From assembly GCA_900320485.1 (NCBI GenBank), contig ONSO01000007.1, positions 1 through 38,424 of the forward strand: a stretch of DNA of 38,424 bases. The letters run 5' to 3'. Positions 414-38,424 of this stretch are shown piece by piece. This stretch comes from an uncultured Lachnospiraceae bacterium. Its GTDB lineage: Bacteria > Bacillota > Clostridia > Lachnospirales > Lachnospiraceae. Made by a program: the position numbers and the translations under genes. A model generated the notes under the pieces. The model did no database searches, was not told where the DNA came from, and saw nothing but the letters and a program-made list of their open reading frames with translations. Every line of letters starts with the position of its first letter. The stretch's first letter is position 1.

Positions 414-512
414 TCAAATCCTTCCAACAATTCTCTGAAACATTACTTCTCCCGCCTGCCTTGCGCTGAATTCTTCAAAACTCTGAATTTCATCAAATTC
501 CGGTCCGTCCAT
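414..512 (-). CDS. possible small acidic protein, 32 aa
   Basis: The frame opens with ATG at 512, inside the last codons of the upstream methyltransferase (20-base overlap), and ends at TGA 12 bases before the ATG of the next gene. It begins MDGPEFDEIQSF and ends QRIVGRI. The purine-rich stretch GGGGAAGGATGACGG precedes the start. The N-terminal half is acidic, and the C-terminal half is hydrophobic/basic. It could be a real coupled small gene, the remnant of an N-terminal extension of the 118-aa downstream protein, or chance. No family is recognised. Confidence 0.3.
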   Translation of the reverse strand: MDGPEFDEIQSFEEFSARQAGEVMFQRIVGRI

Positions 513-1308
513 CCGTCATCCTTCCCCGAATGATCATGGAAAGAGGAAATCCGCTGCGATCGATCTCGGTAAATCCTCCGCTGATGTCGTAGTCGAATTC
601 CTGCAGGCCGGTAATGACAATGCCGTTATGACACATCCCCGTCATGATCTCGGACATGGAATGGGTAAAGTCGGTAAATGTTTTAGACCGATAATTTTTC
701 TGAGTCATATAGTACATGCCTCCGTTGCTTTCCCATTTATGTTCAAAATAGGAATAGTGACATTCCTTTTTATGCTCCGGATCATAGGGTTCATCCCCCG
801 ATGTTGCAAGCATGTTCGTACAGGGGTGCTGTTCATTGATCACAATAACTGCACCGGGCTTCATACACTTTGCCACAATGGCAAAAAACCGGTCCAGGTC
901 CTCAAACCAGCAGAGCGCACCTATAGTGATGATCACCATGTCAAACGCTTCCTTATAGCGGTCATCAATGTCATAAATATTGACAGCCTCGAATTCGCAG
1001 GGCAACTCTAATTCCTTAGCTTTTTCCTTGGCAAAAGCCACCTGATTCTCCGCAATGTCAAAGCCGACACCCTTCCTTGCTTTTCCGCTCTTTACAAGGG
1101 AAAGAAGCTCTCGTCCGTTATTACAGCAAAACTGCCCGATGACCTTCCCTTCCAAGTTCATTGATTTTAGTGCTTCCCGCGTCTCCCGATGAAAGAACGG
1201 ATAGTCTTCCTTTCGTATTCTTTCTGCAATGTCCGCTCCCCAGGAGGCCTCTCTGTTATCAAAAGCCTCCTCCCATGCGGCCTTATTTCCTTCGATATAT
1301 TTTTCCAT
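493..1308 (-). CDS. class I SAM-dependent methyltransferase, 271 aa
   Basis: Predicted to move a methyl group from S-adenosylmethionine to an unidentified, probably small, substrate in the cytoplasm. The Rossmann-fold signature is at about residues 56-66 (VIGQFCCNNGREL), a variant of the usual glycine-rich motif I. It is followed by the acidic strand end GVGFDIAE (ribose-hydroxyl binding), a motif near AVNIYDIDD, and the post-I strand DMVIITIGALCWFEDLD. The length is normal for the family. The ATG at 1308 is preceded by a purine-rich run that is the last part of a 13-nt tandem repeat filling the upstream spacer. Substrate cannot be inferred; the neighbouring nucleotidyl- and acetyltransferases fit a role in small-molecule modification, but that is inference. 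Confidence 0.85.
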   Translation of the reverse strand: MEKYIEGNKAAWEEAFDNREASWGADIAERIRKEDYPFFHRETREALKSMNLEGKVIGQFCCNNGRELLSLVKSGKARKGVGFDIAENQVAFAKEKAKELELPCEFEAVNIYDIDDRYKEAFDMVIITIGALCWFEDLDRFFAIVAKCMKPGAVIVINEQHPCTNMLATSGDEPYDPEHKKECHYSYFEHKWESNGGMYYMTQKNYRSKTFTDFTHSMSEIMTGMCHNGIVITGLQEFDYDISGGFTEIDRSGFPLSMIIRGRMTDGRTGI

Positions 1309-1322
1309 TTTGCTTTATTTCC

Positions 1323-1478
1323 CCCGATTTCCTTCTCTGTTTTCCCTTGCTGCTTTCCCTCGCTGTGTTATGTCTCAGCCTTCCCTCCCGACTATCCTTC
1401 TGGGCTTTCCGTCCCGGCTTTCCCTCTCGACTTTCCCTCCGAGTTTTCCTTCTGGCCTTTCCCTCTCGACTTTCCCTC
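1323..1478 (-). repeat. 13-nt tandem repeat, 12 units, in a 5' leader
   Basis: On the minus strand, twelve consecutive 13-mers can be lined up without gaps. The consensus is GAGGGAAAGYCGR and each unit starts with G or A followed by a purine tract. Units 1 and 4 are identical, and unit 9 is the most diverged. The array fills the space between the stop of the nucleotidyltransferase gene (1529) and the start of the methyltransferase (1308). Each unit contains a GAGGGA-like sequence resembling a ribosome binding site. Thirteen is not a multiple of three, so the tract is not an expanding coding repeat. Confidence 0.85.
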
Positions 1479-1528
1479 CGCCGTCCTTCCCATCCCCCTG
1501 CTCCGGATAACGGGAGCCATCCACGATC

Positions 1529-2311
1529 CTAAACTCGTTTCCTAATCTCAGAGAGCATAAACTCCGCATATTCTTTCGCAAGCTCCATGTCATATACGGG
1601 CGCATCTCCTTGGTATTCCTGCAGCGCCTCCCGTAAAAGTCCATGATACTCCATGGGCAGATTCCGCAGTCCCCACTCTCCGCCCTCCTGCTTGGAGAGT
1701 ACCTTTTTCTCTTTCAGATATGCCAGTACTCTCGCCAGATTTAAGGTCAGATACATGGTATTTTCCGCGATTTCCTCCGGCGCATCCCCTATATCATACC
1801 ATAGAGCATCCAGATAATCCTGCTCCGGCACTTCCCCGAAGACCTCATCAATCGGCAGCCCGCAAAGGCACCTTCCCCTTGCCCTGATCACGGTAAAATG
1901 TGCCGCAAGATCCTTGTCCGCTCCGATCATCTTCTGCACATAATCCTCCGGATACTCCTGGTACCATTTCAGATGCCTTTCCGAAAAATGCAACTCAAAG
2001 GGTGTCGCGTAGGCAAACGGCCTGCAGTCCTTTTGGAGCACAACGCTCATTTCAATTCCCTTGCCCGGCGTCTGCGCATGCTGTGCAACCACCATGTCCA
2101 TAAAGGCTCTCTTCGATTCCTTCGACATCTCATGCTTCACGACAACAATGAAATCCAAATCGCTCTTTTCCGGATGGTAGCACCCCATGGCAGCGGATCC
2201 GTGCAGATAAACGCCCACAAGATTATCGCCCAATATGGTCTTTGTTTTTTCCGCAAACCCGGTAACGAGCTCAGCAGGGAGTTCTATCTCCAGTTCATTA
2301 CCATGTAACAT
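1529..2311 (-). CDS. nucleotidyltransferase of the aminoglycoside adenylyltransferase (AadA/ANT) type, 260 aa
   Basis: The N-terminal domain carries the polymerase-beta-like signature GSAAMGCYHPEKSDLDFIVV (about residues 39-58). Gly-Ser is followed by Asp-x-Asp, the metal-binding pair that positions the nucleotide. The C-terminal part (about 150-260) is helical, as in the DUF4111 domain of AadA/ANT(9) enzymes. Total length matches that family. Known members adenylylate streptomycin or spectinomycin, but chromosomal homologues often have unknown substrates, so resistance should not be assumed. Its ATG directly follows the TAA of the upstream GNAT gene, and GGGGGGC lies upstream of the start. 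It is co-transcribed with flanking acetyl- and methyltransferases. Confidence 0.85.
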   Translation of the reverse strand: MLHGNELEIELPAELVTGFAEKTKTILGDNLVGVYLHGSAAMGCYHPEKSDLDFIVVVKHEMSKESKRAFMDMVVAQHAQTPGKGIEMSVVLQKDCRPFAYATPFELHFSERHLKWYQEYPEDYVQKMIGADKDLAAHFTVIRARGRCLCGLPIDEVFGEVPEQDYLDALWYDIGDAPEEIAENTMYLTLNLARVLAYLKEKKVLSKQEGGEWGLRNLPMEYHGLLREALQEYQGDAPVYDMELAKEYAEFMLSEIRKRV

Positions 2312-2824
2312 TTAATCATGCCCCCCAGTCAAATCATTCGCAGAAGCGAAGGCATCTTCCAGCCGGCAGGTCATGATAAATTCTTCCTCATTCTCATCCA
2401 CTGTTTGAAAGCCCACCTTCTCATACATGCGTACCGCATAGTTTGCCTTCTGCACTGCAAGAGAAGCTTGCCGAAACCCATTCTCCCGAAGGAGCTCCAG
2501 CATCCCCCGCATGAGCTGCGTTCCAATGCCCCTGCCACGGTATTCCCGATAGAGCGCAATGGCAAAGGACGGCGTCTCATCATCCACGTGACCATAATCC
2601 TTCATGATCCGCGTCCATGCGGCTCCGACCACCCTGCCGTCCTCCTCGGCCACCAGACAGTGATCTGCCCTCCCGCTTCCAAAATCCTCGTAGTACACCT
2701 GAAGCTCGGGCCGCTCAATAATGGCTCTCTCCGGTGGTTCCATGCCCTCCGGAATAAAAATCGCCTCATAGAGAAACTCTTTGAGCAATTCCGTCTCATC
2801 CCATTTTAAGCTGCGTATTAACAT
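2312..2824 (-). CDS. GNAT family N-acetyltransferase, 170 aa
   Basis: A GCN5-related acetyltransferase using acetyl-CoA; acceptor unknown. Motif A, which binds the CoA pyrophosphate, is visible as RGRGIGTQLMRGML. It is followed by the motif-B-like segment KANYAVRMYEKVGFQ near the C-terminus. The start is set at the ATG at 2824, where AGGAAGAGAG lies upstream; the longer frame reads back into the preceding gene without a ribosome binding site. The first 29 bases overlap the 3' end of the upstream methyltransferase, and its stop abuts the next gene's ATG. It is therefore part of a tightly packed operon. Confidence 0.85.
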   Translation of the reverse strand: MLIRSLKWDETELLKEFLYEAIFIPEGMEPPERAIIERPELQVYYEDFGSGRADHCLVAEEDGRVVGAAWTRIMKDYGHVDDETPSFAIALYREYRGRGIGTQLMRGMLELLRENGFRQASLAVQKANYAVRMYEKVGFQTVDENEEEFIMTCRLEDAFASANDLTGGHD

Positions 2825-3584
2825 CTCTCTTCCTCGCCAGATACAGCACATAGGTATCCCAAAACTCCACTTTGTCGCCCGCCGCAAGCACTGCGTTTCG
2901 AAGGCCCTCAAAAAACTTGGTCTTATAAGGCTCCGGAATCACCATGTGATCACTGTGGGTACCGCAATAAGCTACATATTCGGCCGCATTGAAAACGCGC
3001 TTTCCGTGAAAGTCATGCCTTACCAGATCTTCATAACCATAGTCCGTCGCATGCAGATAGTCAAAGGGCTCCTTCATATCCTTGTAGGGCGTTTCCGGCT
3101 TGTAATAGGCATCGTAGACCTTCTGGATCTCCCGGTACAGCTCCTCATTGGGCGTCTTGTAATCACTGATCAAATACATCATGGCCAGCATCCCGCCGGG
3201 CTTTAAGAGTTCCAGCGTTTTAGGAAATGCAAAGCGCTCCGGGATCCACTGGATTGCCGCCGCAGAGTAGATCACGTCAAACTTGCGCTCCCCAAAATCA
3301 TGAGTGATAAAGTCATCATTCACAATATGGAAATTGGGGCGGTCTCCATATTTTTCCAGCATCTTCGCGCAGAGATGCTCCCCCAGCTCGATAGCATAAT
3401 AATCGCAGCCTGTGTCCAAAATGGGATCCGTGGCCTGCCCGGTTCCCGGTCCGATTTCCAGCACCTTCGTCCCGGGGCCGATGCCTGCAGTCTTAATGAA
3501 ATACGCAAACAGATCTGCGCTGTAGCGTGGCCTGAATTTATCAAACTGCTCCGGGATCGTGTCAAAAATTTTTCTGAATTCCAT
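2796..3584 (-). CDS. class I SAM-dependent methyltransferase, 262 aa
   Basis: A cytoplasmic methyltransferase with a textbook motif I (VLEIGPGTGQAT, about residues 40-51). It also has an acidic residue at the end of strand 2 (YYAIELGEHLC), FDVIYSAAAIQWIPE as motif IV/post-I, and LLKPGGMLAMMY as strand 5. The C-terminal third (about 150-262) is rich in Tyr and forms the substrate cap in related enzymes. AAGGAG precedes the ATG by seven bases. The fold resembles ubiquinone/trans-aconitate-type small-molecule methyltransferases, but the substrate cannot be named. The 3' end overlaps the start of the GNAT gene. Confidence 0.87.
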   Translation of the reverse strand: MEFRKIFDTIPEQFDKFRPRYSADLFAYFIKTAGIGPGTKVLEIGPGTGQATDPILDTGCDYYAIELGEHLCAKMLEKYGDRPNFHIVNDDFITHDFGERKFDVIYSAAAIQWIPERFAFPKTLELLKPGGMLAMMYLISDYKTPNEELYREIQKVYDAYYKPETPYKDMKEPFDYLHATDYGYEDLVRHDFHGKRVFNAAEYVAYCGTHSDHMVIPEPYKTKFFEGLRNAVLAAGDKVEFWDTYVLYLARKRDVNTQLKMG

Positions 3585-3654
3585 CCGTTTTCTCCTTCTT
3601 CGCGGACTCTTTAAGCTCTTTATAGACGTCCTTCAGCCTCTTGTCCCATTTTCC

Positions 3655-4842
3655 TTAAAAATGCTCCCCGCAGAAAACGTTTTTCTCGGTAAAGACATTT
3701 CGGAGCATGTCCTCCTTCGCATGAACGGACACGTCGCCTCGAAGCAGCGCCTCATCAAAATTCACTGCACCGACGGCCATCTGCCCAAGCGCCCGCACGT
3801 CCACTTCCAAATCCGCCGTCTTCTTTGCCCGGCTCTCCGGGACCCTTTGTACCTGATCCGCTTTTACACGGAATGTGCCGTTATTTTCCCGAATGAGGTC
3901 ATCCGCCACCTTTACCGTGAAATCACAGTCTGAAGGCTTCCTGATCACCTCAAGAAGCTTTTTCGCATTGATCACCCTGACCATGAAATTCTGCTGCGTC
4001 TCTTTCTGAATGTCGTAGGCGCGAGGCGAGTGGATAATGCGAAGAAGGTCGATTCCCTTTGGAAGAGGGAGCTTGATCTCGCCGTAATCCGCCTCGAATC
4101 TAGCCAGAAATCCAAGGAGGGCAAGGAATCCCTCCCGCCTGGTCCAGGCACATTCCTCCACCTGCAAAATGGCTGCAGGGTCATGTCTTACGTCCGTAAA
4201 GATCAGATAGGCGATCGGCTTGCCATCCTGCTTGAAAACATAGGAAAACTTCCTGTCCAGATAAGGCTTTTCCACCTTCACGTGTTCCAGCATCTGGTCT
4301 TCGTTACGCTCCATGGCGAAATTAAACTTTGGTGCAAACACCTGATAAACCTGCAAAAAATCTTCCACGGAGTCCCCCGGATTCCACTTGCGCACCTCGC
4401 CGTTAAAGCGGTAATCCGAAAGCACGGACGGTGCAAACGCATACTCATTCATGAAGGTGACAACTTCATACCCGGCCTTCCTGTAAAATGCATGCTTAAA
4501 GGGATACAGGGCGGAGATCACCTCGCCGTTTTTGTACGCACTTGGCAATAGCTCCTTAAAGATTGCGCGGATCGCGCCGCAGTCACGATATTCCGGGAGG
4601 GTCGATACCGCTCCAATGCCTCCCGCGGTCACTGCCTGCCCGTCCAGATAAAAGGAAAACCTGTTGTTGATGATCCGGGCCATCATAGTGCCGTCCTCGT
4701 CAAAGGCTCCCCAGTCCTCGTGCTTTTCCTCTTCGATTTCTTTCCGTTTTGCCTCCGGATCCTCCACACGCATGTGAAAGCAATACGCCGAGATCAAATA
4801 TGCATCAAAGTAATCCTTTTGATTTAGTTTTTTAATCTTCAT
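3655..4842 (-). CDS. Eis-like GNAT acetyltransferase, 395 aa
   Basis: Resembles the Eis family: an N-terminal GNAT domain (about 1-140), a second GNAT-like domain (about 150-285) and a C-terminal sterol-carrier-like domain (about 290-395). The CoA-binding area is recognisable around GGIGAVSTLPEYRDCGAIRA, followed by the conserved ALYPFKHAFYRKAGYE. In Mycobacterium, Eis acetylates aminoglycoside amines and protein lysines; most Firmicute homologues are uncharacterised. Length is typical (about 390-410). A weak AGGTGAGAAG precedes the ATG, and the gene starts seven bases after the stop of the metallo-hydrolase, implying one transcript. After the stop, the same frame stays open for about 30 codons, which I do not count as coding. 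Confidence 0.85.
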   Translation of the reverse strand: MKIKKLNQKDYFDAYLISAYCFHMRVEDPEAKRKEIEEEKHEDWGAFDEDGTMMARIINNRFSFYLDGQAVTAGGIGAVSTLPEYRDCGAIRAIFKELLPSAYKNGEVISALYPFKHAFYRKAGYEVVTFMNEYAFAPSVLSDYRFNGEVRKWNPGDSVEDFLQVYQVFAPKFNFAMERNEDQMLEHVKVEKPYLDRKFSYVFKQDGKPIAYLIFTDVRHDPAAILQVEECAWTRREGFLALLGFLARFEADYGEIKLPLPKGIDLLRIIHSPRAYDIQKETQQNFMVRVINAKKLLEVIRKPSDCDFTVKVADDLIRENNGTFRVKADQVQRVPESRAKKTADLEVDVRALGQMAVGAVNFDEALLRGDVSVHAKEDMLRNVFTEKNVFCGEHF

Positions 4843-4849
4843 TTTCTTC

Positions 4850-5881
4850 TCACCTGTTTTTTATCTCAATCCTGTCTAAAATTCCCTGAACGGTGACGTT
4901 TGTATGGGTAAGGTACATCCTTGTCACGTCCTCGATGAAGTCCGGGGCCGCCCCCGTCTTTTTTGCAATCTTCTTAAGCGCCCAGCCCTTGTCAACGTAT
5001 TTCATGATGCTTTCAACCAGGTCATACCATTTTGTGCCGTCATCGGCGCCTTGAACCTTCCTGTTTCGAGCCATGCTGACTTGATCCTTGCCGTCTGGGT
5101 CTTTGTTGACGCATATCATGCCGTCCTGGTCTTTGCTATCGTACGCCTTGCTTCCCCGGTCTTTACTGCCGTGTGCCTTGCTTCCCCGGTCTTTACTGCC
5201 GTGTGCCTTGCTTTCCTGGCCTTTGCTGTCGTACGCCTTGCTTCCCTGCCTGTCGCTAATGCCTGCTTCCGTTCCCTCTGGCATTACCTCCTGCTCTAAC
5301 ATCGCAGTTTTGGCATGTCCGTAATAAACAATCCCCGGCTTTAATGCAAGGCACCTGTTCCAGCTTCGTTCAATCTCCGTTCCCCGATGAAGCTCCAATT
5401 CATACAAGGGATTTAAGTCTCCCACAAACAAAGCCCCTTGATCCAACCATAGGGAGATGCTGTCATCGGAATGCCCCGGCGTATGCAGGATTTCACCGTT
5501 GATTCCCAGCGTTGCCAGAAAATTCCGGCTTTCACTTAAAGTGACGTGTTTTACCTTCTCATCCCTGATCGGGAAGAACCTCATCCTCTTATCCTTCTCA
5601 AAAATGCCGTCCGAGGCATGAAGATAATCCTTTTGCACGTCACATGCAAGGATCACCGGCCCCTGATCCGCAATCTCCTGCGCAATACCGTAATGATCCG
5701 GATGGAAATGGGAGATCAGGATATGATCGATGCTTTTTAATTGCTTTCCGCATCGCCCTAATTCCGCGCAAAACATGGGAAATGTCCCTGCCCATCCCGT
5801 GTCAAAGAGAATCGTACCCTTCTCCCCTTCGATCAGATAAGTATTGGTGTTAGAATATTTTAAAGTTGTTATCTTCTCCAT
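4850..5881 (-). CDS. MBL-fold metallo-hydrolase with internal tandem-repeat insert, 343 aa
   Basis: The N-terminal 195 residues form a metallo-beta-lactamase fold. Metal ligands are visible as HFHPDH (residues 58-63), the His of LHTPGHSDD (about 137), Asp of FVGDLNP (about 155) and His of YYGHAKT (about 189). Residues 213-252 are four copies of a ten-residue unit (GSKAHGSKDR and variants), followed by decayed copies to about 275. This charged, probably disordered segment separates the catalytic domain from a helical C-terminal domain (about 283-343) typical of glyoxalase-II-like and RNase-Z-like MBL proteins. Substrate unknown. It is first in a cluster leading into the Eis-like gene. Confidence 0.88.
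   Translation of the reverse strand: MEKITTLKYSNTNTYLIEGEKGTILFDTGWAGTFPMFCAELGRCGKQLKSIDHILISHFHPDHYGIAQEIADQGPVILACDVQKDYLHASDGIFEKDKRMRFFPIRDEKVKHVTLSESRNFLATLGINGEILHTPGHSDDSISLWLDQGALFVGDLNPLYELELHRGTEIERSWNRCLALKPGIVYYGHAKTAMLEQEVMPEGTEAGISDRQGSKAYDSKGQESKAHGSKDRGSKAHGSKDRGSKAYDSKDQDGMICVNKDPDGKDQVSMARNRKVQGADDGTKWYDLVESIMKYVDKGWALKKIAKKTGAAPDFIEDVTRMYLTHTNVTVQGILDRIEIKNR
5126..5245 (-). repeat. 30-nt in-frame tandem repeat, four units
   Basis: Four 30-bp units lie inside the metallo-hydrolase gene. Two neighbouring units are nearly identical at the DNA level, suggesting recent duplication or slippage. Each codes for ten residues of the form xSKAxxSKxx, and a half-period of five residues (xSKxx) is also visible. 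Decayed related units continue towards 5060. Because the unit is a multiple of three, copy-number changes keep the frame. Confidence 0.85.
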
Positions 5882-5896
5882 TTTTTCTTCCTTTTT

Positions 5897-5991
5897 GTGC
5901 CATTGGGGACGGTTCTTTCTGGCATATTTGTGCCATTGGGGACGGTTCTTTCTGGCACATTTGTGCCACGGAGAACCGTCCCCGTTGGCAC
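5897..5991. repeat. REP-like cluster: two direct copies plus one inverted
   Basis: Three 29-nt copies lie at 5897-5925, 5930-5958 and 5963-5991. Each starts GTGCCA, has the core GGGGACGGTTCT (or its complement) and ends TGGCA(C/T). The second and third face each other across a four-base gap and can form a long hairpin. They fill the space between the MBL gene start and the stop of the kinase-GNAT gene. Elements with this core are known in many genomes and are thought to be moved by RAYT (IS200-like) transposases; none is encoded here. Confidence 0.85.
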
Positions 5992-5992
5992 G

Positions 5993-7132
5993 CTACAGCA
6001 TCTTTACGTAAAGATGATCCGTGCCACCGCCATAATTAATTATGTCTCTCAAATAATGATAACCATATTTTTCATAAAAGCCCTTAAATTCGCTGGGGAT
6101 ATAACTCTTCTCAAACCCATGTTCCTTCAGGTATTTGTTTGCCGCATCGATCATTTTTCCGCTGATGCGATTGCCCCGAAAGCCGTCCTCCACAAAGATA
6201 CCGGACACCCACGGACAGATTTCCGGTAAGGGATAATAATCCGTTTTCATGACGGAGGTCATGCCAATGATCCTGCCCTCTGACACAGCCACAAACACGG
6301 CTTCCCAATCCTCATAAATCCATTCCCGAAGGTTTTTTGCCAAATGCTCCTTTGCCTCCGTCCAAGAACAATTCTCCACAAACCGGAGTAGTTCCCCCGC
6401 AAGTTCAGAGTCTCTTTCGATCTTTGTCACAACGACTCCATGAGAATTTGCGTCCTTCTTATCCACGTCAGCTTGCCGCGTATGATTGCATTCAAATCCA
6501 AAATGCTCCGCCAAGAGCGCCACGGTCTCCTCCACGCTGCGCCCGTTATCACGCTCCAGCCAAAAATACCTGCTCTGCTTCACGTCCTGATAGAGCTTTA
6601 AGTTTAGCGACAATAAAGTCTCATTGCAGGTCTCCTTCGCCTTTTTATAATCCGTTGCACTGTGGATGAAATCGTGAAAACCCTGATGATCCGGTCTGTT
6701 ACAGTAATCCTCCACCAGAGCCTTGGGCTCTTTTATCAGGAAAGCAACGCGGGACGGATCTGACAATGTGTTTGCCTGCTCCAAGGTCAGGTGGCAGTCG
6801 CAGAGAACCGGCCCCTCCTGAGCTAACCTGATCAAGTCCATAATGACGAAATCCAGTTGTTCTCTGGTGTTGTTAAGGAGCCATGCCTTATATTCCTCCA
6901 CGCTCCGTCCAAAAAACTCGTCCGCATCCCGAAACTCCCGGTTCATGCTGGGCTGATGCTCCGGATCCGACATTCTCCGATGCTCCTCAAAGCGCTCATC
7001 AATGTCATAGACCGGGATCCCAAATCTCTTGCTAAGGGCCCTCGATATGGTGGTCTTGCCGCCACAAGGGGTTCCCGTAATGAAATACACATTCTTCAAA
7101 TACTCTCTTACTACGTTATCTTGAAATATCAT
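5993..7132 (-). CDS. P-loop kinase-like domain fused to GNAT acetyltransferase, 379 aa
   Basis: Two enzymes in one chain. The N-terminal half (about 1-215) has a Walker A motif GTPCGGKTT at about residues 20-28, a YDIDERFEEH segment and a DRPxH-like acceptor/lid region. It resembles small-molecule or nucleotide kinases of the AAA_33 type. The C-terminal half (about 235-379) is a GNAT domain: VSGIFVEDGFRGNRISGKM is motif A and FYEKYGY is motif B. The start is placed at the ATG at 7132 because AAAGGAG lies nine bases upstream; the two upstream in-frame ATGs lack a good site. REP-like clusters flank both ends. It might phosphorylate and acetylate the same class of compound; this is inference. 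Confidence 0.82.
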   Translation of the reverse strand: MIFQDNVVREYLKNVYFITGTPCGGKTTISRALSKRFGIPVYDIDERFEEHRRMSDPEHQPSMNREFRDADEFFGRSVEEYKAWLLNNTREQLDFVIMDLIRLAQEGPVLCDCHLTLEQANTLSDPSRVAFLIKEPKALVEDYCNRPDHQGFHDFIHSATDYKKAKETCNETLLSLNLKLYQDVKQSRYFWLERDNGRSVEETVALLAEHFGFECNHTRQADVDKKDANSHGVVVTKIERDSELAGELLRFVENCSWTEAKEHLAKNLREWIYEDWEAVFVAVSEGRIIGMTSVMKTDYYPLPEICPWVSGIFVEDGFRGNRISGKMIDAANKYLKEHGFEKSYIPSEFKGFYEKYGYHYLRDIINYGGGTDHLYVKML

Positions 7133-7268
7133 GATTTTATTCTCCTTTGATCCTATAGTTTCCACGTTATCAAGTTCACTTCGCATGAAACCACCGACCA
7201 ATGATCCCATGCAATCAGATATTTCTAAGTTTTAAAAACATCACCATTGTTTTCTTTCCTCCTTTTTT

Positions 7269-7367
7269 GTGCCATTGGGGACGGTTCTCTTTGGCACGTT
7301 TGTGTGTGCCATTGGGGACGGTTCTCTTTGGCACGTTTGTGCCACGGAGAACCGTCCCCGTTGGCAC
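7269..7367. repeat. REP-like cluster: two direct copies plus one inverted
   Basis: Copies at 7269-7297, 7306-7334 (direct) and 7339-7367 (inverted) repeat the arrangement at 5897-5991. The core is GGGGACGGTTCTCTTTGG here instead of GGGGACGGTTCTTTCTGG, so the two clusters are related but not recent exact copies. The second and third copies form a hairpin with a four-base loop. The cluster lies immediately after the stop codon of the next gene. Confidence 0.85.
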
Positions 7368-7369
7368 AT

Positions 7370-8164
7370 TCAAATTTCCGTCAAATCATAATCCTTCGAT
7401 TTAAGAATTACCGCATGCTCCGGAAAAATCTCCCTCAGAAGCCGCAGTTCCACCGATTTCCTGTGCTCCAAATGAGCCACCAGGTCATCAAAACCTTGCC
7501 ATCCATGGCGAAGTCCACAGGGACTGCTCCTTAAATACTCCATCATCAGCGGGAACCACATTTCATTGCCTTCCTGATCCACCCTCTCCCTGCGTATGAT
7601 CTCAATACCCTCGGCAATCTTCTCCACATCCAGATACAATATCTTGTACTCCCGCTCGCCAAGCACCTGCTTTAACCTAGCATAAAATTCCAAAATCTCA
7701 TCGTCCGTCATCTCATAATAAAGGATTTGATTTTCCACGATATTCTGAAAGATGGAGCATTCAAAGATCTGATCCCGTCCCTTCCATCTGCCAAAGCGCG
7801 TTAGAATGATATCTTCAAATTCTCTCCTGTCATACCGTCCGTTATATATTTCATAATTCTCAAGATCCTTATGAAAGCCGGGAACGTCCGTCAATATTCG
7901 CGTGTATTTTATAACGCGCCTGTGATTACTCTCTGATTTATAATCTGGCTCTATGGTAACGTTAGCTTCGATTTCCTTACGCATTTTTGCATATTTTCGC
8001 AGGACGTCCTGATACTGTCCTTCCGTCAGATAGGCGCACCATGCAAGCTCCACGGGCGAATAATCTCCCTCACGGAACACTTGATGATGCGGCAATTTTT
8101 CAGCCAATCTTCCAACCAAAGTGCTCTTGCCCGCTCCCTGTATTCCCTCAACAAAATAATTCAC
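7370..8164 (-). CDS. P-loop nucleoside/small-molecule kinase-like protein, 264 aa
   Basis: The P-loop EGIQGAGKSTLVGRL at residues 6-20 places it in the thymidylate-kinase-like P-loop group. A later Arg-rich segment (EIIRRERVDQEGNE) is suggestive of a lid, and RDQIFECSIFQN resembles an acceptor-binding loop. The start is the GTG at 8164: GGAGGGGGAG lies just upstream. The longer frame back to 8347 reads through REP-like repeats and the neighbouring gene, so it is not real. Function is not known; it is not a typical dTMP kinase in sequence. REP-like elements lie on both sides. Confidence 0.75.
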   Translation of the reverse strand: MNYFVEGIQGAGKSTLVGRLAEKLPHHQVFREGDYSPVELAWCAYLTEGQYQDVLRKYAKMRKEIEANVTIEPDYKSESNHRRVIKYTRILTDVPGFHKDLENYEIYNGRYDRREFEDIILTRFGRWKGRDQIFECSIFQNIVENQILYYEMTDDEILEFYARLKQVLGEREYKILYLDVEKIAEGIEIIRRERVDQEGNEMWFPLMMEYLRSSPCGLRHGWQGFDDLVAHLEHRKSVELRLLREIFPEHAVILKSKDYDLTEI

Positions 8165-8199
8165 GTAACACTCCCCCTCCTTAACCCTTATCACAAAAC

Positions 8200-8263
8200 G
8201 TGCCAGGAAGAACCGTCCCCGGTGGCACACATACGTGTCAAACAGAACCGTCCCCGGTGGCAC
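8200..8263. repeat. two REP-like copies in direct orientation
   Basis: Copies at 8200-8228 and 8235-8263 share the core AGAACCGTCCCC followed by GGTGGCAC. The second copy begins GTGTCA instead of GTGCCA. It overlaps the last nine codons and stop of the ABC-F gene, so the repeat contributes the protein's C-terminus (CATGDGSV). Confidence 0.85.
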
Positions 8264-9845
8264 ATAGGCCTTCGGGTGTGAGCCGATATACCTTGTCGCA
8301 CACCTCAGACAAGAATTTTCTGTCATGAGAGACGCTGATAATGGCACCTGGAAACTCCCTGAGCATCCGCCGGATCACGGGACCGGACAGGGGCGAAAAA
8401 TTACGCGTCGGCTCATCCAGGATAAGCACGTTGGCACCTGACATGCTGAGTTTTAAGAGTAGAACCTTCGCCTTCTGCCCACCGGAAAGTTCCCGGATGG
8501 GATGGTCCATCTCGTCCGCCGTGTATTTTAAGGCACCAAGATAGGTACGGATCCTGGTCCTTTCCTCCTTCTCGCCCGAAACATACAAAAAATCCACCGG
8601 TGTTTCATCCAAGTTCAGTAATTCTTCGTAATTTTGGGGCATATACTCGGCCCGAAGATCCGGCCTTTCCAAAAGCAAATTTGCAATTTCTGACAAAAGC
8701 GTCGTTTTACCGCAGCCGTTGGTTCCAATGATCCCAATCTTTTCCGGGCCGCGGATTTTTAGCGCGATTCCTTTCGAGAGTACCCTCATGCCATCTGCCG
8801 TCAAAAGCTCGGGCTTTTCAAAGTCCAGCACCCATTTTCCCGCGGGGATCCCGCTGTTTTCATCGCCCAGCTTAAAGAAAATGGCATCCTCCCATTCGGG
8901 CATTTCCGTCATCTGCTCGTCCAGTCTCTCAAAGCGTTTCCCCATGGCTTTTACGGAATGCATTTTGTCCTTTAGGTTCTTTCCAACGGAAGGAGCCTGC
9001 CTGGAGACAGCGCCCTGCGCATGCTCCACCTGCTGCAGGAGCCTGCGGTACTTCTCCTCGCGGATCACCTTTTCCTTCCTGTCCGTAATGGCGAGCTGTT
9101 CCTGCCTTTCAAACCCGCGCAGCCGCTCCTCCACGTACCTTCGATAAGGCACGTTGGCAATTGTGTGCCGACACTTTGTCTTTCGGCGGATCTGCTCTAG
9201 ATGAATGACCCTGTTTGCCGTCCGCTCGATCAGAGTCTCGTCATGAGAGATGAACAAAACTGCATGCGGCCAGTCAAGCAAAAACTCTTCCATCCACTCC
9301 AGCGTCTCCACGTCAATGTCATTGGAAGGCTCATCCAGAAGCAAAATCGTCGGCCGCTCCATCAGAATACGCATCATCTGCGCCTTGACGCGCTCGCCTC
9401 CGGAGAGAGTTTGCATCTCCTGTTCACGGTAAAAGAACTCCTGCTCCACGCCAAAATCCTTCGCCATTTTCGAGAGTTCCTTTGGCGTCAGGTCCGGGAA
9501 TTCCCGGCTTTCCATAAAATACTCATAAACCTTTTTACGCTTTTCTGCCTCCGGCAGCTCCTGGGGAAGATACCCCAGTTTTTCTCCGCTGACAATCTTT
9601 TCACCCGTCGCTTCCACATAGGGTTCCACGAGCTCCGGATCATAGATCCATTTCATCAGCGTGGATTTTCCATTCCCCTCTTCGCCGATCATCACGGCCC
9701 TGTCCCCGTCATTTAATACCAGGGAAAAATCCTCAAGGATCGTTCGAAGATCCTTTTTATGTAATAAAGTAACGTTTTTGATCTGAAACGTAAAACCACC
9801 CCCTTTCAGATACAAACACGGGCTTTCCGGGGCAATTCCTTCCAT
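8238..9845 (-). CDS. ABC-F family ATPase (ribosome-associated), 535 aa
   Basis: Two ABC ATPase domains without membrane segments, the layout of ABC-F proteins that act on ribosome-bound tRNA and, in some branches, protect ribosomes from antibiotics. Domain 1: Walker A GEEGNGKST (54-62), signature LSGGERVK (147-154), Walker B TILLLDEP (166-173). The linker (about 210-340) is long, charged and coiled-coil-like. Domain 2: Walker A GTNGCGKTT (374-382), signature LSGGQKAK (453-460), Walker B VLILDEP (473-479), then RNFSPLS. Recognisable homology begins around residue 20, so the true start may lie later than the ATG at 9845, which has only a weak ribosome binding site. It sits three bases after a GNAT gene; both are downstream of a putative attenuator. 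The stop is inside a REP-like element. Confidence 0.9.
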   Translation of the reverse strand: MEGIAPESPCLYLKGGGFTFQIKNVTLLHKKDLRTILEDFSLVLNDGDRAVMIGEEGNGKSTLMKWIYDPELVEPYVEATGEKIVSGEKLGYLPQELPEAEKRKKVYEYFMESREFPDLTPKELSKMAKDFGVEQEFFYREQEMQTLSGGERVKAQMMRILMERPTILLLDEPSNDIDVETLEWMEEFLLDWPHAVLFISHDETLIERTANRVIHLEQIRRKTKCRHTIANVPYRRYVEERLRGFERQEQLAITDRKEKVIREEKYRRLLQQVEHAQGAVSRQAPSVGKNLKDKMHSVKAMGKRFERLDEQMTEMPEWEDAIFFKLGDENSGIPAGKWVLDFEKPELLTADGMRVLSKGIALKIRGPEKIGIIGTNGCGKTTLLSEIANLLLERPDLRAEYMPQNYEELLNLDETPVDFLYVSGEKEERTRIRTYLGALKYTADEMDHPIRELSGGQKAKVLLLKLSMSGANVLILDEPTRNFSPLSGPVIRRMLREFPGAIISVSHDRKFLSEVCDKVYRLTPEGLCATGDGSV

Positions 9846-9848
9846 TCC

Positions 9849-10610
9849 CTATTCCTGATAGAGGATTTCCTCCTCTCCCTCAAGATAATGGAAGCCCTCC
9901 AGTTGGTTTCCGCACCAGATGCTCTCAAAAACCGCCTCACCCCTTGACGCCTTCATCAACCACAAACCTAGCAGCTTCTCGCCTGCCTCTTTATTGTCTG
10001 CCATCTCATCATACTCATGGCTTTTCCCTTCCTTTTTTAAGTAGCTTTGTATCAGCGGCAGCATTAGCTTCTTTGCCCTCTCACCGTCAGAAATGGGGAA
10101 ATGATGATACAGCCACTTATGATATTCCGTCTCCTTCTCGTCAAAATAGCAATTCCAAAACCGACAAGGCTGTCTCGTATTCCAAAATCCCATTTTCTCA
10201 TGGAGCCGGATGGAATTTGCATTTTGAGAATGCACGGAGGCGGCAATGCACTCAGCTGCTTCATATTTCATGACCATTTCGATGGTTTTTTCATACATGC
10301 CCGCAGCAATCCCCTGCCGTCTGTGGTCTGCCCTGACGTGCACGTCACCGATAAACCATTTCGTCGGATCCTCCGGGTATCGAAGACACCTCAGATATCC
10401 CACAACCCTTCCTCCGTCTCTTACGATGGTCTCAAACCATTTCACCGCAGTTTCCTTTTCAAACCAATCACAGAAGTGAACCTGCTCCCTTGCATTTTCC
10501 TCATCAAGGCCCTTCACTTCCATGAAAAAATCCGTCAAAGCGTCTTCGGCTTTTTTTGTCAGATTTAAGTGTGAATCCACCACGTAACGTCGATAGTTCT
10601 TTCCTGCCAT
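9849..10610 (-). CDS. GNAT family N-acetyltransferase, 253 aa
   Basis: Acetyl-CoA-dependent acetyltransferase with motif A at HVRADHRRQGIAAGMYEKT and motif B at NANSIRLHEKMGFW. These lie in the middle of the protein, followed by a C-terminal extension of about 100 residues that is not part of the minimal domain. GGAGGTGG lies a few bases before the ATG at 10610, which settles the start; the longer frame to 10763 would run through the intrinsic terminator. It is followed after three bases by the ABC-F gene. The pairing of a GNAT with an ABC-F behind a leader ORF and terminator suggests translation-inhibitor-responsive expression (inference). Acceptor unknown. Confidence 0.85.
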   Translation of the reverse strand: MAGKNYRRYVVDSHLNLTKKAEDALTDFFMEVKGLDEENAREQVHFCDWFEKETAVKWFETIVRDGGRVVGYLRCLRYPEDPTKWFIGDVHVRADHRRQGIAAGMYEKTIEMVMKYEAAECIAASVHSQNANSIRLHEKMGFWNTRQPCRFWNCYFDEKETEYHKWLYHHFPISDGERAKKLMLPLIQSYLKKEGKSHEYDEMADNKEAGEKLLGLWLMKASRGEAVFESIWCGNQLEGFHYLEGEEEILYQE

Positions 10611-10725
10611 GATCCACCTCCCTATTCTCCTGCTAACGGCACGAACGCTCCTGCCGGTTCCGGGCGCTTCACGGGCATCCTTTCGCCCTCCCATGATCGT
10701 GCAGTCGGAAGCCACCCGGGCGCAC

Positions 10726-10756
10726 AAAAAAACCCCAGTACCTTCCGGTACCGGGG
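10726..10756 (-). terminator. intrinsic terminator in the leader (putative attenuator)
   Basis: Minus strand: CCCCGGTACC, loop GGAA, GGTACTGGGG, then seven T residues. The ten-pair stem has one G-T wobble and is GC-rich at its base. It lies between the leader ORF and the GNAT start (10610), and no other gene separates them. It therefore either ends a very short transcript or is bypassed when the operon is induced. Confidence 0.88.
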
Positions 10757-10817
10757 CAATCATCGCGACTCATCATCCATATGAAAATTCCATATGAAAC
10801 TATTCCTGCCGTCTTTA

Positions 10818-10889
10818 TCACACGCTTCTCCAGGAGGTAATTACGTTATTATATTCATTGTCAAAAAGCTTACGATTACGAATGAACAT
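10818..10889 (-). CDS. leader ORF, 23 codons
   Basis: Begins MFIRNRK and ends ITSWRSV, then TGA. It has an almost ideal ribosome binding site, AAAGGAGGTAGTAAAATG, and lies about 75 bases downstream of a consensus promoter and about 60 bases upstream of an intrinsic terminator. The peptide is basic at its N-terminus with an Asn-rich middle; I recognise no family. Codons 17-20 (ATTACCTCCTGG) are complementary to the ORF's own ribosome binding site. Position and architecture match regulatory leader peptides that control ABC-F and other ribosome-protection genes through ribosome stalling. It might instead be a small independent protein. Confidence 0.65.
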   Translation of the reverse strand: MFIRNRKLFDNEYNNVITSWRSV

Positions 10890-10902
10890 TTTACTACCTC
10901 CT
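10832..10902 (-). promoter_or_regulatory. SD/anti-SD pairing in the leader RNA
   Basis: The minus-strand segment AGGAGGTAGT (10902-10893), the ribosome binding site of the leader ORF, can pair with ATTACCTCCT (10841-10832) inside the same ORF: nine Watson-Crick pairs plus one G-U. The inner segment mimics the 3' end of 16S rRNA and could also pair with the GNAT ribosome binding site GGGAGGTGG near 10615-10622. Pairing is seen in sequence; a regulatory effect is inferred. Confidence 0.55.
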
Positions 10903-10964
10903 TTCCCGCCCAATGGCGATGCACGGTTAACAGTTTCCAAATCAGCACACGCTGACATTTATTG

Positions 10965-10993
10965 ATTATACAGACAGTTTCCGGAAATGTCAA
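10965..10993 (-). promoter_or_regulatory. consensus sigma-A promoter for the leader/GNAT/ABC-F unit
   Basis: The -35 TTGACA (10993-10988), a 17-base spacer and -10 TATAAT (10970-10965) are both perfect. Transcription would start near 10958, giving about 70 bases of RNA before the leader ORF. A second TTGACA lies at 11015-11010. Confidence 0.88.
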
Positions 10994-13641: not shown

Positions 13642-13705
13642 TGTGCCACCGGGGACGGTTCTCCCTGGCACAAACGTGCCAGGGAGAACCGTCCCCGGTG
13701 GCACA
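13642..13705. repeat. perfect 30-bp inverted repeat made of two REP-like units
   Basis: The arms 13642-13671 and 13676-13705 are exact reverse complements separated by AAAC. Each arm is a REP-like unit beginning TGTGCCACC, with the core GGGGACGGTTCT and ending TGGCAC. It lies 17 bases upstream of the fusion gene start, inside its probable 5' leader, and would form a very stable hairpin in RNA. Confidence 0.92.
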
Positions 13706-36509: not shown

Positions 36510-36601
36510 AACCATTCTCCCCTCTTCCGTCGGGCAAAAATCCATTGTCTGAAACGTACGCCTCCCGGCGCAATCGAGTAGGGATGGTTTGTCCATCCCT
36601 C

Positions 36602-36639
36602 TCACACCACCGTACGTGCCGTTCGGCATACGGCGGTTC
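36602..36639 (-). ncRNA. group II intron domain V (catalytic hairpin)
   Basis: A GC-rich hairpin just after, and overlapping by two bases, the maturase stop, read on the minus strand as GAACCGCCGTATGCC, GAA, then GGCACGTACGGTGG. Domain V is the ribozyme active site. Domain VI with its branch-point stem follows directly. Confidence 0.78.
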
Positions 36640-37921
36640 AACATAACTTCAAAGCATGACGCTCATTGTAATAGTCAAGACAGCTTATAAGTCCCGCCTT
36701 TGCTAACACACCTTTGGAAATAGCTCTGACAGCGCAAGTTTTCGTGACCACCCAATAATAACGGTCACCACAATAGGCTGTCAGTCGGGCAAGGTCTTTT
36801 CCAATCCCAAGCTTTTGCAATCCCCATTGTCGTTTCTCCGGCACTTTCCACTGTTTCCAAATAATGATTCTGATTCTTGTCCTTAGATGTGCGTCGATTT
36901 CAGCCATCGCTGTTTTCATGGAGCCAAAGGCAAAGTAGTTTATCCATCCTCTTGTCACCTGATTGATTTTCGCAATCTTACCTGTGACTGTTCCAGGCAT
37001 TTTTCTACAAGTCAGTTCTTTAAGCTTTCGCTTAAGCTTAGCCACCGAGTCTTGATGCGGTCTGCACTTCCATTCGTTAGCCTTGCCATCCTTATAGAAA
37101 CCAAAGCCCAGATATTTCAGCTTCTGCGGTCTTGTGATATGGGTCTTGGTCATGTTAACCTTTAACCCAAGTTTCCTCTGTATCCAGTCCGTCACTGTCC
37201 GCATTACACGCTTCGCACTTGCTTCGCTCCTGACAGCTATAACGCAGTCATCAGCGTATCTTGTAAACCGAAGTTGTCTTGCTTCCAGTTCTTTGTCCAG
37301 TTCATTCAGCATGATGTTTGATAGTAGCGGTGACAGGTTTCCGCCCTGCGGGGTTCCGAGTTTTGTTTCCTCATATCCCTGTGGCGTCATGACTCCTGCT
37401 TTGAGGTACTTACGGATTAGCGACTCTGTATCTCCATCATTGATGATGTTATGGACAAGACTCATGAGCTTGTCTTGTGGTACATTGTCAAAGAATTTCT
37501 CCAAGTCGATATCTACTATCCACTCGTAACCCTCGTTCAGGTAAATAAGCAGTTGTCTGATTGCCATTTCGCAGCTTCTGTTTGGTCTGAAGCCGTAACT
37601 CCATTCCGAGAACAGAGGCTCGCACATAGGGCTTATTATCTGCACTATGCCTTGCTGAATTACCCTGTCCATTACGGTCGGGATTCCAAGTTTCCTCACT
37701 CCTCCGTTTGGCTTGGGTATCTCTACCCTCCTGACTGGCTGTGGGTTATATTCCCTGCACCTGATTTGCTCCCTGATACCCTTCCAATGCTCTTCGATGT
37801 AATCGCCGAGTTCTTCAACCGTCACCTCGTCTACACCGCTTGCCCCTTTATTGGCACATACTCTTTTATAGGCGGCATTCATGTTTTCATTGGACAGTAT
37901 CTTTTCCAACAGTTCCGACAT
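36638..37921 (-). CDS. ltrA: group II intron reverse transcriptase/maturase, 427 aa
   Basis: Intron-encoded protein that promotes splicing and retrohoming. Reverse transcriptase blocks are visible: SEWSYGFRPNRSCEMAI, IVDIDLEKFFDNVPQ, GTPQGGNLSPLLSNIM and the catalytic YADD at 222-225. A maturase X domain (about 300-427) follows, with GWINYF and similar group II features. The C-terminal HNH endonuclease domain is absent, as in several bacterial intron classes that use host functions for insertion. Length is normal for that type. The stop overlaps the start of domain V. The ATG at 37921 has AAAGGAG only at some distance. Confidence 0.93.
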   Translation of the reverse strand: MSELLEKILSNENMNAAYKRVCANKGASGVDEVTVEELGDYIEEHWKGIREQIRCREYNPQPVRRVEIPKPNGGVRKLGIPTVMDRVIQQGIVQIISPMCEPLFSEWSYGFRPNRSCEMAIRQLLIYLNEGYEWIVDIDLEKFFDNVPQDKLMSLVHNIINDGDTESLIRKYLKAGVMTPQGYEETKLGTPQGGNLSPLLSNIMLNELDKELEARQLRFTRYADDCVIAVRSEASAKRVMRTVTDWIQRKLGLKVNMTKTHITRPQKLKYLGFGFYKDGKANEWKCRPHQDSVAKLKRKLKELTCRKMPGTVTGKIAKINQVTRGWINYFAFGSMKTAMAEIDAHLRTRIRIIIWKQWKVPEKRQWGLQKLGIGKDLARLTAYCGDRYYWVVTKTCAVRAISKGVLAKAGLISCLDYYNERHALKLC

Positions 37922-38424
37922 TGCTTTGTGTGCTCTCTCCTTTCCGTTCCCATGGATTCGCCCTAAGTTGTGCAGTATCTGCTCATTTACGTTTCGCCCT
38001 TCCTGCTGTCAGGTATTCCATGCGGCATACATTTGATTACACGGTTACATTGTTCAGCCCTTTAGCAGAGCTCATTTCAGAGCCATGCCTACTACGGCTT
38101 CTGCTGACTTCTCACAGTTCGTTGTTACTACGGCGAACGATACCGTCTGTGAGACCTCACGGGATAAGCCTGTCAATCTTTCCTCGTCTACCTGCCTGAT
38201 TTACGCACATGGGTTACGGTTGCCTTTTGGACTTCACTGTCTCGGGCCAGTTTATCCGCCATGTACGCCTTGTATCAGGTTTCTGTTCGTCAGGCTACGA
38301 TTTCGCTATCCCTTCTTCTCGCCTACACCTCGCGATGTAAACCATGGGAGTCGCTATGGGGTTCGTTGGCAACTACGCCCCTCGTGGACTTTCACCGCAG
38401 ACCGACGGCATGCCCGTCATACCC

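Follow-up and report, generated by a model that had tools for sequence, protein, structure and literature searches.

A stretch of 38,424 bp from an uncultured Lachnospiraceae bacterium (assembly GCA_900320485.1, contig ONSO01000007.1; hereafter the window) carries on its minus strand a GNAT acetyltransferase gene and an ABC-F gene, preceded by a leader with a small upstream open reading frame (uORF). A preliminary description of the sequence proposed this leader as a translation-sensing attenuator of a GNAT/ABC-F operon, and the locus raises the question of which gene the leader controls and how it might do so. The reading favored here, to which a probability of about 0.6 is given, is that the leader attenuates transcription of the ABC-F gene under the control of ribosomes, and that an anti-Shine-Dalgarno (anti-SD) sequence within the uORF is the strand shared by two folds.

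The leader was found to contain each of the parts that the preliminary description had named (Table 1). The promoter, called perfect there, agrees with the consensus throughout, the 23-codon ORF lies behind a strong SD (GGAGG), and the intrinsic terminator precedes the GNAT and ABC-F genes with an 11-pair stem and a T-run. The claim that an anti-SD within the ORF can pair over ten positions with the ORF's own ribosome binding site was likewise confirmed, ATTACCTCCT (10841-10832) and AGGAGGTAGT (10902-10893) forming ten contiguous pairs of which one is G-U. Folding of the window leader was better than that of 100 out of 100 of its own shuffles (z -2.7). In the genus alignment 76.2% of the cells of hairpin P1 are paired, with two pairs showing two-sided change. 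Hairpin P2a is invariant in the nine leaders of the genus, and its CGC/GCG is present in the alignment of the other genera too, as judged by eye. Hairpins at the P4 position were found in 13 leaders with z from -3.8 to -0.1. Against Rfam 15 the window leader had no match at the gathering score (the best sub-threshold hit, E 0.089, was to an unrelated sRNA), and none of 12 loci searched in Rfam, four with long leaders and eight with the short leaders described below, matched a family.

Table 1. Features of the leader and of the two genes behind it (positions within the 38,424-bp window).
Feature	Position	Strand	Remarks
Sigma-A type promoter TTGACA-17-TATAAT	10965..10993	-	Matches the consensus at 12/12 positions; -35 at 10993-10988, -10 at 10970-10965, spacer 17
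5' hairpin P1 (TCAGC/GCTGA)	10942..10955	-	Sequence differs among relatives, hairpin stays
Hairpin P2a (CGCC/GGCG)	10907..10918	-	Immediately 5' of the SD; unchanged in nine genus leaders
uORF SD region, 5' arm of SD:anti-SD helix P3	10893..10902	-	10 pairs in the window; GGAGG at 10901-10897, 7 nt from the uORF ATG
Leader ORF (uORF), MFIRNRKLFDNEYNNVITSWRSV then TGA	10818..10889	-	23 codons, ATG at 10889; from sequence and relatives
Anti-SD within uORF	10830..10841	-	Codons I-T-S-W; strand common to P3 and the proposed anti-terminator
Spacer hairpin P4 (CATATG arms)	10777..10799	-	All 13 leaders have a local hairpin here, with differing sequences
Intrinsic terminator hairpin	10732..10757	-	11 pairs, loop of 4; arms 10757-10747 / 10742-10732
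Terminator apex CCGGAAGGTA	10739..10748	-	10 positions; anti-SD partner in the proposed anti-terminator
Terminator U-tract	10726..10732	-	From sequence
GNAT acetyltransferase gene	9849..10610	-	Pfam PF00583, E 8.8e-18; ATG at 10610
ABC-F gene	8238..9845	-	Conserved target of the leader; two ABC domains

A DNA search of 61 genomes returned two relatives of the leader, in G011 and G018 (E 6e-27 and 3e-26), each with an ABC-F orthologue of 75-76% identity behind the leader terminator; the remaining matches had E values of 0.014 or worse. By covariance model the leader was identified in nine of 138 genomes searched for the genus, once per genome, and these are the same nine that carry the closest ABC-F orthologues; two genus genomes (G061 and G099) returned no locus. 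When the model was run on 397 genomes drawn from the family, it recovered the window together with a single weak match (G249, E 0.0099); this was accepted as true, since here too the ABC-F gene follows. An ABC-F protein search of 397 family genomes led to three further leaders (G233, G536, and G349), which were unreported by the covariance model at E 0.01 and by blastn. A model built from the genus only matched all four leaders of the other genera within the loci (E 0.00014, 0.00085, 0.0061, and 0.03 in 41.7 kb), and no match to the leader was found in the plasmids searched. The resulting 13 leaders belong to one family, in which they cover four genera, and every one stands ahead of an orthologous ABC-F gene; the count is a lower bound drawn from genomes whose ABC-F passed the E-value limit.

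The preliminary description had left the conservation of the ORF and terminator to be checked in related genomes, and both are kept, together with the SD, the uORF length and the anti-SD, across these 13 leaders and four genera. TTGACA and the 17-nt spacer occur in 13/13 and TATAAT in 12/13 (TATCAT in G249). A uORF with its own SD lies between the promoter and the target gene in every leader; its length is always 22-24 codons, and the distance from the end of CCTCC to the uORF stop is 15 nt in 12 cases. An intrinsic terminator between uORF and gene is present in the nine genus leaders, that of the window included, and, by sequence, in the other four. The window leader is the most diverged of its genus (136.7 bits vs. 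157-182); it lacks one of the anti-terminator pairs, and its helix P2 is shortened. On comparison of sequences, such conservation gives good support to an attenuator that senses translation and precedes the ABC-F gene.

The part assigned to the GNAT gene was not upheld. Elsewhere, in the other 12 leaders, terminator and ABC-F start are separated by 32-206 nt, which leaves no room for a GNAT gene, so that the leader does stand upstream of ABC-F in these genomes but not upstream of homologous GNAT/ABC-F pairs. Since, of the 13 leaders, only that of the window has an intervening GNAT gene behind it, the system is regarded as an ABC-F attenuator and the GNAT as a local addition; the proposed GNAT/ABC-F attenuator accordingly survives, by comparison of the 13 leaders, in its ABC-F half. 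A GNAT relative (45% identity) was found just upstream of the leader and on the same strand in G076, and four other loci with GNAT relatives (L002, L003, L019, and L020) contained no such leader by covariance model at E up to 1 in 3.3-6.7 kb each. The GNAT/ABC-F pairing is real in this genome, yet it looks young, and the co-induction of the two genes would follow only from their position.

The ABC-F protein was found to match Pfam PF00005 in two stretches corresponding to the two ABC ATPase domains. It scored 352.5 bits against NCBIfam NF000355, the antibiotic-resistance ABC-F model, which is under the curated cut-off of 380, and its best matches among solved structures were 8buu_9, which is VmlR2 according to PMC10201436, and 7nhl/7nhn. 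The protein may work like an antibiotic-resistance ABC-F, though it is not filed as one. The best PADLOC match (mad3, E 1.1e-37) was taken as a general ATPase match. The start used by the relatives, the ATG of MFQIKN, is ACG in the window, where the frame opens at an upstream ATG adjoining the GNAT stop codon (9845 to about 9788). Within the long-uORF clade two quite different inter-domain arm tips were observed, of the SRQAPSVGKNLKDKM and ADRDAIGRLLKKKM types (L045, L046, L030, and others). A tie between leader type and arm tip was looked for among 22 proteins and none was seen; the window, G129 and G089 have an arm tip like that of short-uORF genes despite their long uORF.

The ABC-F gene belongs to a run of genes on the minus strand (493-9845), several of which look antibiotic-modifying or ribosome-related. 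The run includes, besides ABC-F, a P-loop protein, an AadA-like nucleotidyltransferase, methyltransferases, a metallo-beta-lactamase fold and three more GNAT-type genes, one Eis-like and one fused to a kinase-like domain. A dispersed repeat containing GGGGACGGTTCT occurs, partly as inverted pairs, at 5905-5983, 7277-7359, 8209-8255, and 13651-13696, with 11 matches at ≤1 mismatch against 0.2 expected; the ABC-F frame has a copy on either side of its 3' end, at 8209 and 8244, and the 12 bases are also present upstream of the G249 leader (L102). A group II intron with Rfam matches to intron domains lies at 36573-38339 on the minus strand, and contains a frame (36638-37921) which, from its sequence, we take to be reverse transcriptase-like.

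The anti-SD was found to have two partners, namely the uORF's own SD and the loop plus inner stem of the terminator. The first pairing (P3) is formed in 101 of 104 cells over eight core pairs in the 13 leaders, a recount that omits a ninth, poor pair (105/117 with it); G349 shows one two-sided change from A-U to G-C, and G249 one A-C mismatch. For the entire fold that includes P3 and the terminator, in nine leaders, 94.2% of cells are paired and 10 pairs show two-sided change, which exceeds 497 of 500 shuffles. Within the genus five pairs of the terminator show such change, all in its outer part and none among the inner four.

The second pairing, that of the anti-SD with the terminator apex (CC[AG]GnAGGU[AG][UC]), is formed in 128 of 130 cells in the 13 leaders. 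The single freely varying position of the terminator loop is opposite the only mismatch of the anti-terminator, and the loop G and the A beside the mismatch are invariant throughout. A C directly behind CCTCC was seen only in combination with G as the terminator loop base (2/2), the combinations being U-G in seven leaders, U-A in four and C-G in two, and in G349 the SD changed along with the C. For the nine genus leaders 98.9% pairing was obtained vs. 28-51% when the strands were slid by 1-3 columns; 57 of 500 column shuffles were paired as well as the anti-terminator, because the columns hardly vary. No anti-terminator pair shows two-sided change within the genus, and one does across genera. 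The loop is GGAA in 9/13 leaders, which is a plain stable tetraloop as well.

Several nulls were applied to the second pairing, with the qualification that leaders within the genus are related and the results are thus not independent trials. For terminators redrawn so as to retain their pairs and the letters of the loop, the observed score was reached in five lineage representatives by 1 (G129), 2 (G071), 15 (G233), 2 (G349), and 43 (G249) of 3000, and by 211 of 3000 for the window (G000). A null of the same kind based on duplex energy was weaker, with per-leader p values of 0.001-0.24, or 0.014-0.34 when the redrawing preserved the stem's strand bias (0.24 and 0.34, respectively, for the window); the mean of eight leaders, which are related to one another, was reached by 0/1000. 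Shuffled leaders reached the score somewhere in 5-24 of 1000 cases for 11 leaders, 138 for the window and 161 for G249, and at the same place in 0/1000 for all 13. From these comparisons the pairing of anti-SD and apex is likely but not proven. Two other candidates for an anti-terminator were rejected: pairing of the SD with the terminator 5' arm is weak and not kept (the SD of G078 is mismatched), and no common partner of the 5' arm emerged from folds in which the site of the ribosome was masked, T3 had yet to be made, or the terminator was disallowed.

Energy calculations bear on when the second pairing could form. With the hairpin partly transcribed the anti-terminator fold is predicted to be the better one in 13/13 leaders, by 0.3-6.6 kcal/mol, and with the full hairpin the terminator is favored, by 3.6-15.3 kcal/mol over the anti-terminator when the 5' part is removed and by 11 to 27 kcal/mol if the SD:anti-SD helix is allowed. 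As the full terminator is the more stable even without the 5' part, capture by the anti-SD would have to be kinetic. If it works, the pairing would, according to these models, act during transcription, with a chance that depends on an open SD:anti-SD helix.

In the best model the SD:anti-SD pairing is itself part of the switch. When the SD is free, either because there is no translation or because the ribosome is already past, P3 would form as the anti-anti-terminator, allowing the terminator to form and transcription to stop. A ribosome arrested in about the first ten codons would occupy the SD and leave the anti-SD free, and the latter could then capture the inner 5' bases of the terminator, its loop and its inner 3' arm on their emergence (10 pairs with one mismatch). 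Such capture would delay the terminator, and RNA polymerase would read into the ABC-F gene. The switch thus probably turns the ABC-F gene on when ribosomes stall, and a ribosome-targeting drug would be the presumed cause of stalling.

The place of arrest may be codon 4 or near it. The early codons of the peptide are constrained, as judged by pN/pS alone (0.38 for codons 4-10, 0.54 for 2-10, 1.05 for 11-16, and 0.68 for 20-23, as descriptive figures). Arginine is present at codon 4 in 12/13 long uORFs and appears to be kept as an amino acid, since it is encoded by CGT, CGC, and CGG. Further downstream, the T-S-W codons (ACC TCC TGG) are unchanged in seven collinear uORFs of the genus in which the rest varies; across the four genera the residues encoded by the anti-SD change (T/A, S, W/R) and the pairing stays. 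The anti-SD corresponds to about codons 16-19, so that a ribosome arrested at codon 4 would stop ~20 nt short of it. If the leading edge is put at 15-16 nt (a toeprint distance taken from PMC6851288), an anti-SD that starts at about codon 16 would therefore be free only if arrest occurs in roughly the first ten codons. A ribosome arrested at codons 4-6 would be at the edge of the SD, and not squarely over it.

Alternatives differ in the signal, in the anti-terminator or in whether a switch exists at all. One that is compatible with the main model, possible but rather doubtful, makes the leader a macrolide sensor with arrest at R-x-R at codons 4-6, as in the leaders ErmDL, MefAL, HflXr, and TlrB. 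R/K-x-R/K is the known macrolide arrest motif (PMC6851288, PMC10314930), and it occupies codons 4-6 in nine of the 13 leaders, as RVR or RNR in eight and R-S-K in one more. It is nevertheless absent in G011, G233, G536, and G249, and what stays constant across genera is the codon-4 arginine, which is common to most four-codon uORFs of the sister genes. An ABC-F attenuator with another anti-terminator, formed by P2, P4, or a pre-terminator helix, with the anti-SD only limiting re-initiation on the uORF, is unlikely: P2 (ACCGUGC with GCACGGU immediately past the uORF stop) has 94.4% of the cells of its inner part paired in the genus, but its sequence is missing from the other three genera by eye; and although within the genus the pre-terminator stretch pairs best with the end of the uORF (mean z -1.63), over the 13 leaders this helix has a mean z of only -0.70, whereas anti-SD and apex can pair in all. 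The pre-terminator helix, fair in the genus and not outside it, was rejected as a candidate.

Less probable still is that SD:anti-SD only tunes translation of the small peptide, the terminator being a constant brake that holds ABC-F at a low basal level. The predicted energies agree with this, as the full terminator is always thermodynamically favored, but it leaves unexplained the match of the loop bases to the anti-SD in 13/13 leaders, the nearly fixed uORF length and the constrained first codons. That there is no regulator, only a chance ORF beside the ordinary terminator of an unrelated transcript, is scarcely credible; terminator-like hairpins are indeed common here (12 in 4.5 kb vs. a mean of 5.7 in shuffles), but the occurrence of 13 leaders in four genera, with the same gene downstream and within one clade, argues against it.

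The attenuator favored above was also placed against the leaders of related ABC-F genes. Among 67 ABC-F loci, 13 have the long uORF, 44 a uORF of three or four codons, eight none by the rule applied (an MSSR uORF is visible in one of these, L032) and two too little sequence. The 13 long-uORF genes form one ABC-F clade (SH-aLRT 100) among short-uORF genes, implying one change on a tree that, like the 40-locus tree which gave the same single clade, is a quick one in which forks are weak and some branches long (L044, L038, and others). Of the four-codon uORFs that were picked first, 38 in all, 34 end in Arg and three in Lys, with the remaining locus having a second candidate, MFIR; the six three-codon uORFs are MRR, MRK, MLR, MFR, MFN, and MYN. 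In the four-codon class (loci within L052-L119) M-x-x-R is directly followed by the stop and by a complementary segment downstream. These leaders resemble the long type in target gene, codon-4 arginine and downstream terminator, and differ in that the stop region AGAUAAUUUGAUUUAAG can pair with downstream CUUAAAUUAGAUUAUC in place of SD:anti-SD, so that they seem, from 14 leaders compared by eye, to use another anti-anti-terminator. Because M-x-x-R is common to the long uORFs and to most of the short ones, a single sensor close to the start, wired in two ways at the RNA level, is suggested, common descent of the leaders being left aside. A fuller version, held more tentatively than the attenuator itself, is that of an SD-occupancy sensor in which one coding anti-SD serves either the SD or the terminator apex, start-proximal arrest is read and a later ribosome silences; one clade would have rewired an ancestral four-codon M-x-x-R switch while keeping its sensing start, and the GNAT gene would have been captured behind it.

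Attenuators with a uORF and terminator are known ahead of ABC-F genes, namely vmlR (PMC9226507), cplR (PMC10201436), and msrD (PMC10314930). For vmlR of Bacillus subtilis, breakage of an anti-anti-terminator by uORF arrest has been reported on the basis of experiments (PMC9226507), and the leader shares with those described here a promoter, uORF, anti-anti-terminator, anti-terminator, intrinsic terminator and ABC-F target. It differs in having a three-codon uORF (MIN) inside SL-1 and a single-stranded SD, whereas the present uORFs have 22-24 codons and the anti-anti-terminator is formed by the uORF SD and an anti-SD that belongs to the coding sequence. A related logic has been reported with experiments for cplR of Clostridioides difficile, which, like lmo0919/vgaL, has a uORF, terminator and anti-terminator (PMC10201436); cplR is also a Clostridia ABC-F gene. 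Its uORF has three codons (MR[I/M]), and the SD of the main gene is hidden within the terminator as well; an anti-SD element is named in a figure legend. In msrD, macrolide-dependent arrest on the leader peptide likewise prevents a terminator ahead of ABC-F, but the stalled ribosome itself obstructs that terminator (PMC10314930), whereas 66-93 nt separate the uORF stop from the terminator apex in the 13 leaders. The hflXr/rli80 leader of Listeria (PMC6310831) and tlrB of B. subtilis (PMC6851288) share an R-x-R uORF and a terminator, and the anti-anti-terminator of rli80 lies within the uORF stretch; the genes they control encode an HflX homologue and a 23S rRNA methyltransferase, and their uORFs have 14 and 9 codons, respectively. 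The kind of attenuator is already known, and what is new here is the long uORF with a coding-sequence anti-SD shared by the SD and the terminator apex. Among the matches listed from the open literature, with subscription papers and preprints outside its scope, no title dealt with long-uORF leaders in this group of ABC-F genes, which is no proof of absence.

If the proposed attenuator is correct, these leaders would represent a compact design in which a single coding anti-SD is common to two folds. They would also offer a natural comparison, as orthologous resistance-type genes would be controlled by two leader wirings with the same first codons, and a direct test of which part of the leader sets the drug that is sensed would become possible. 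The window would in addition provide an example of a new gene, the GNAT, coming under an existing switch.
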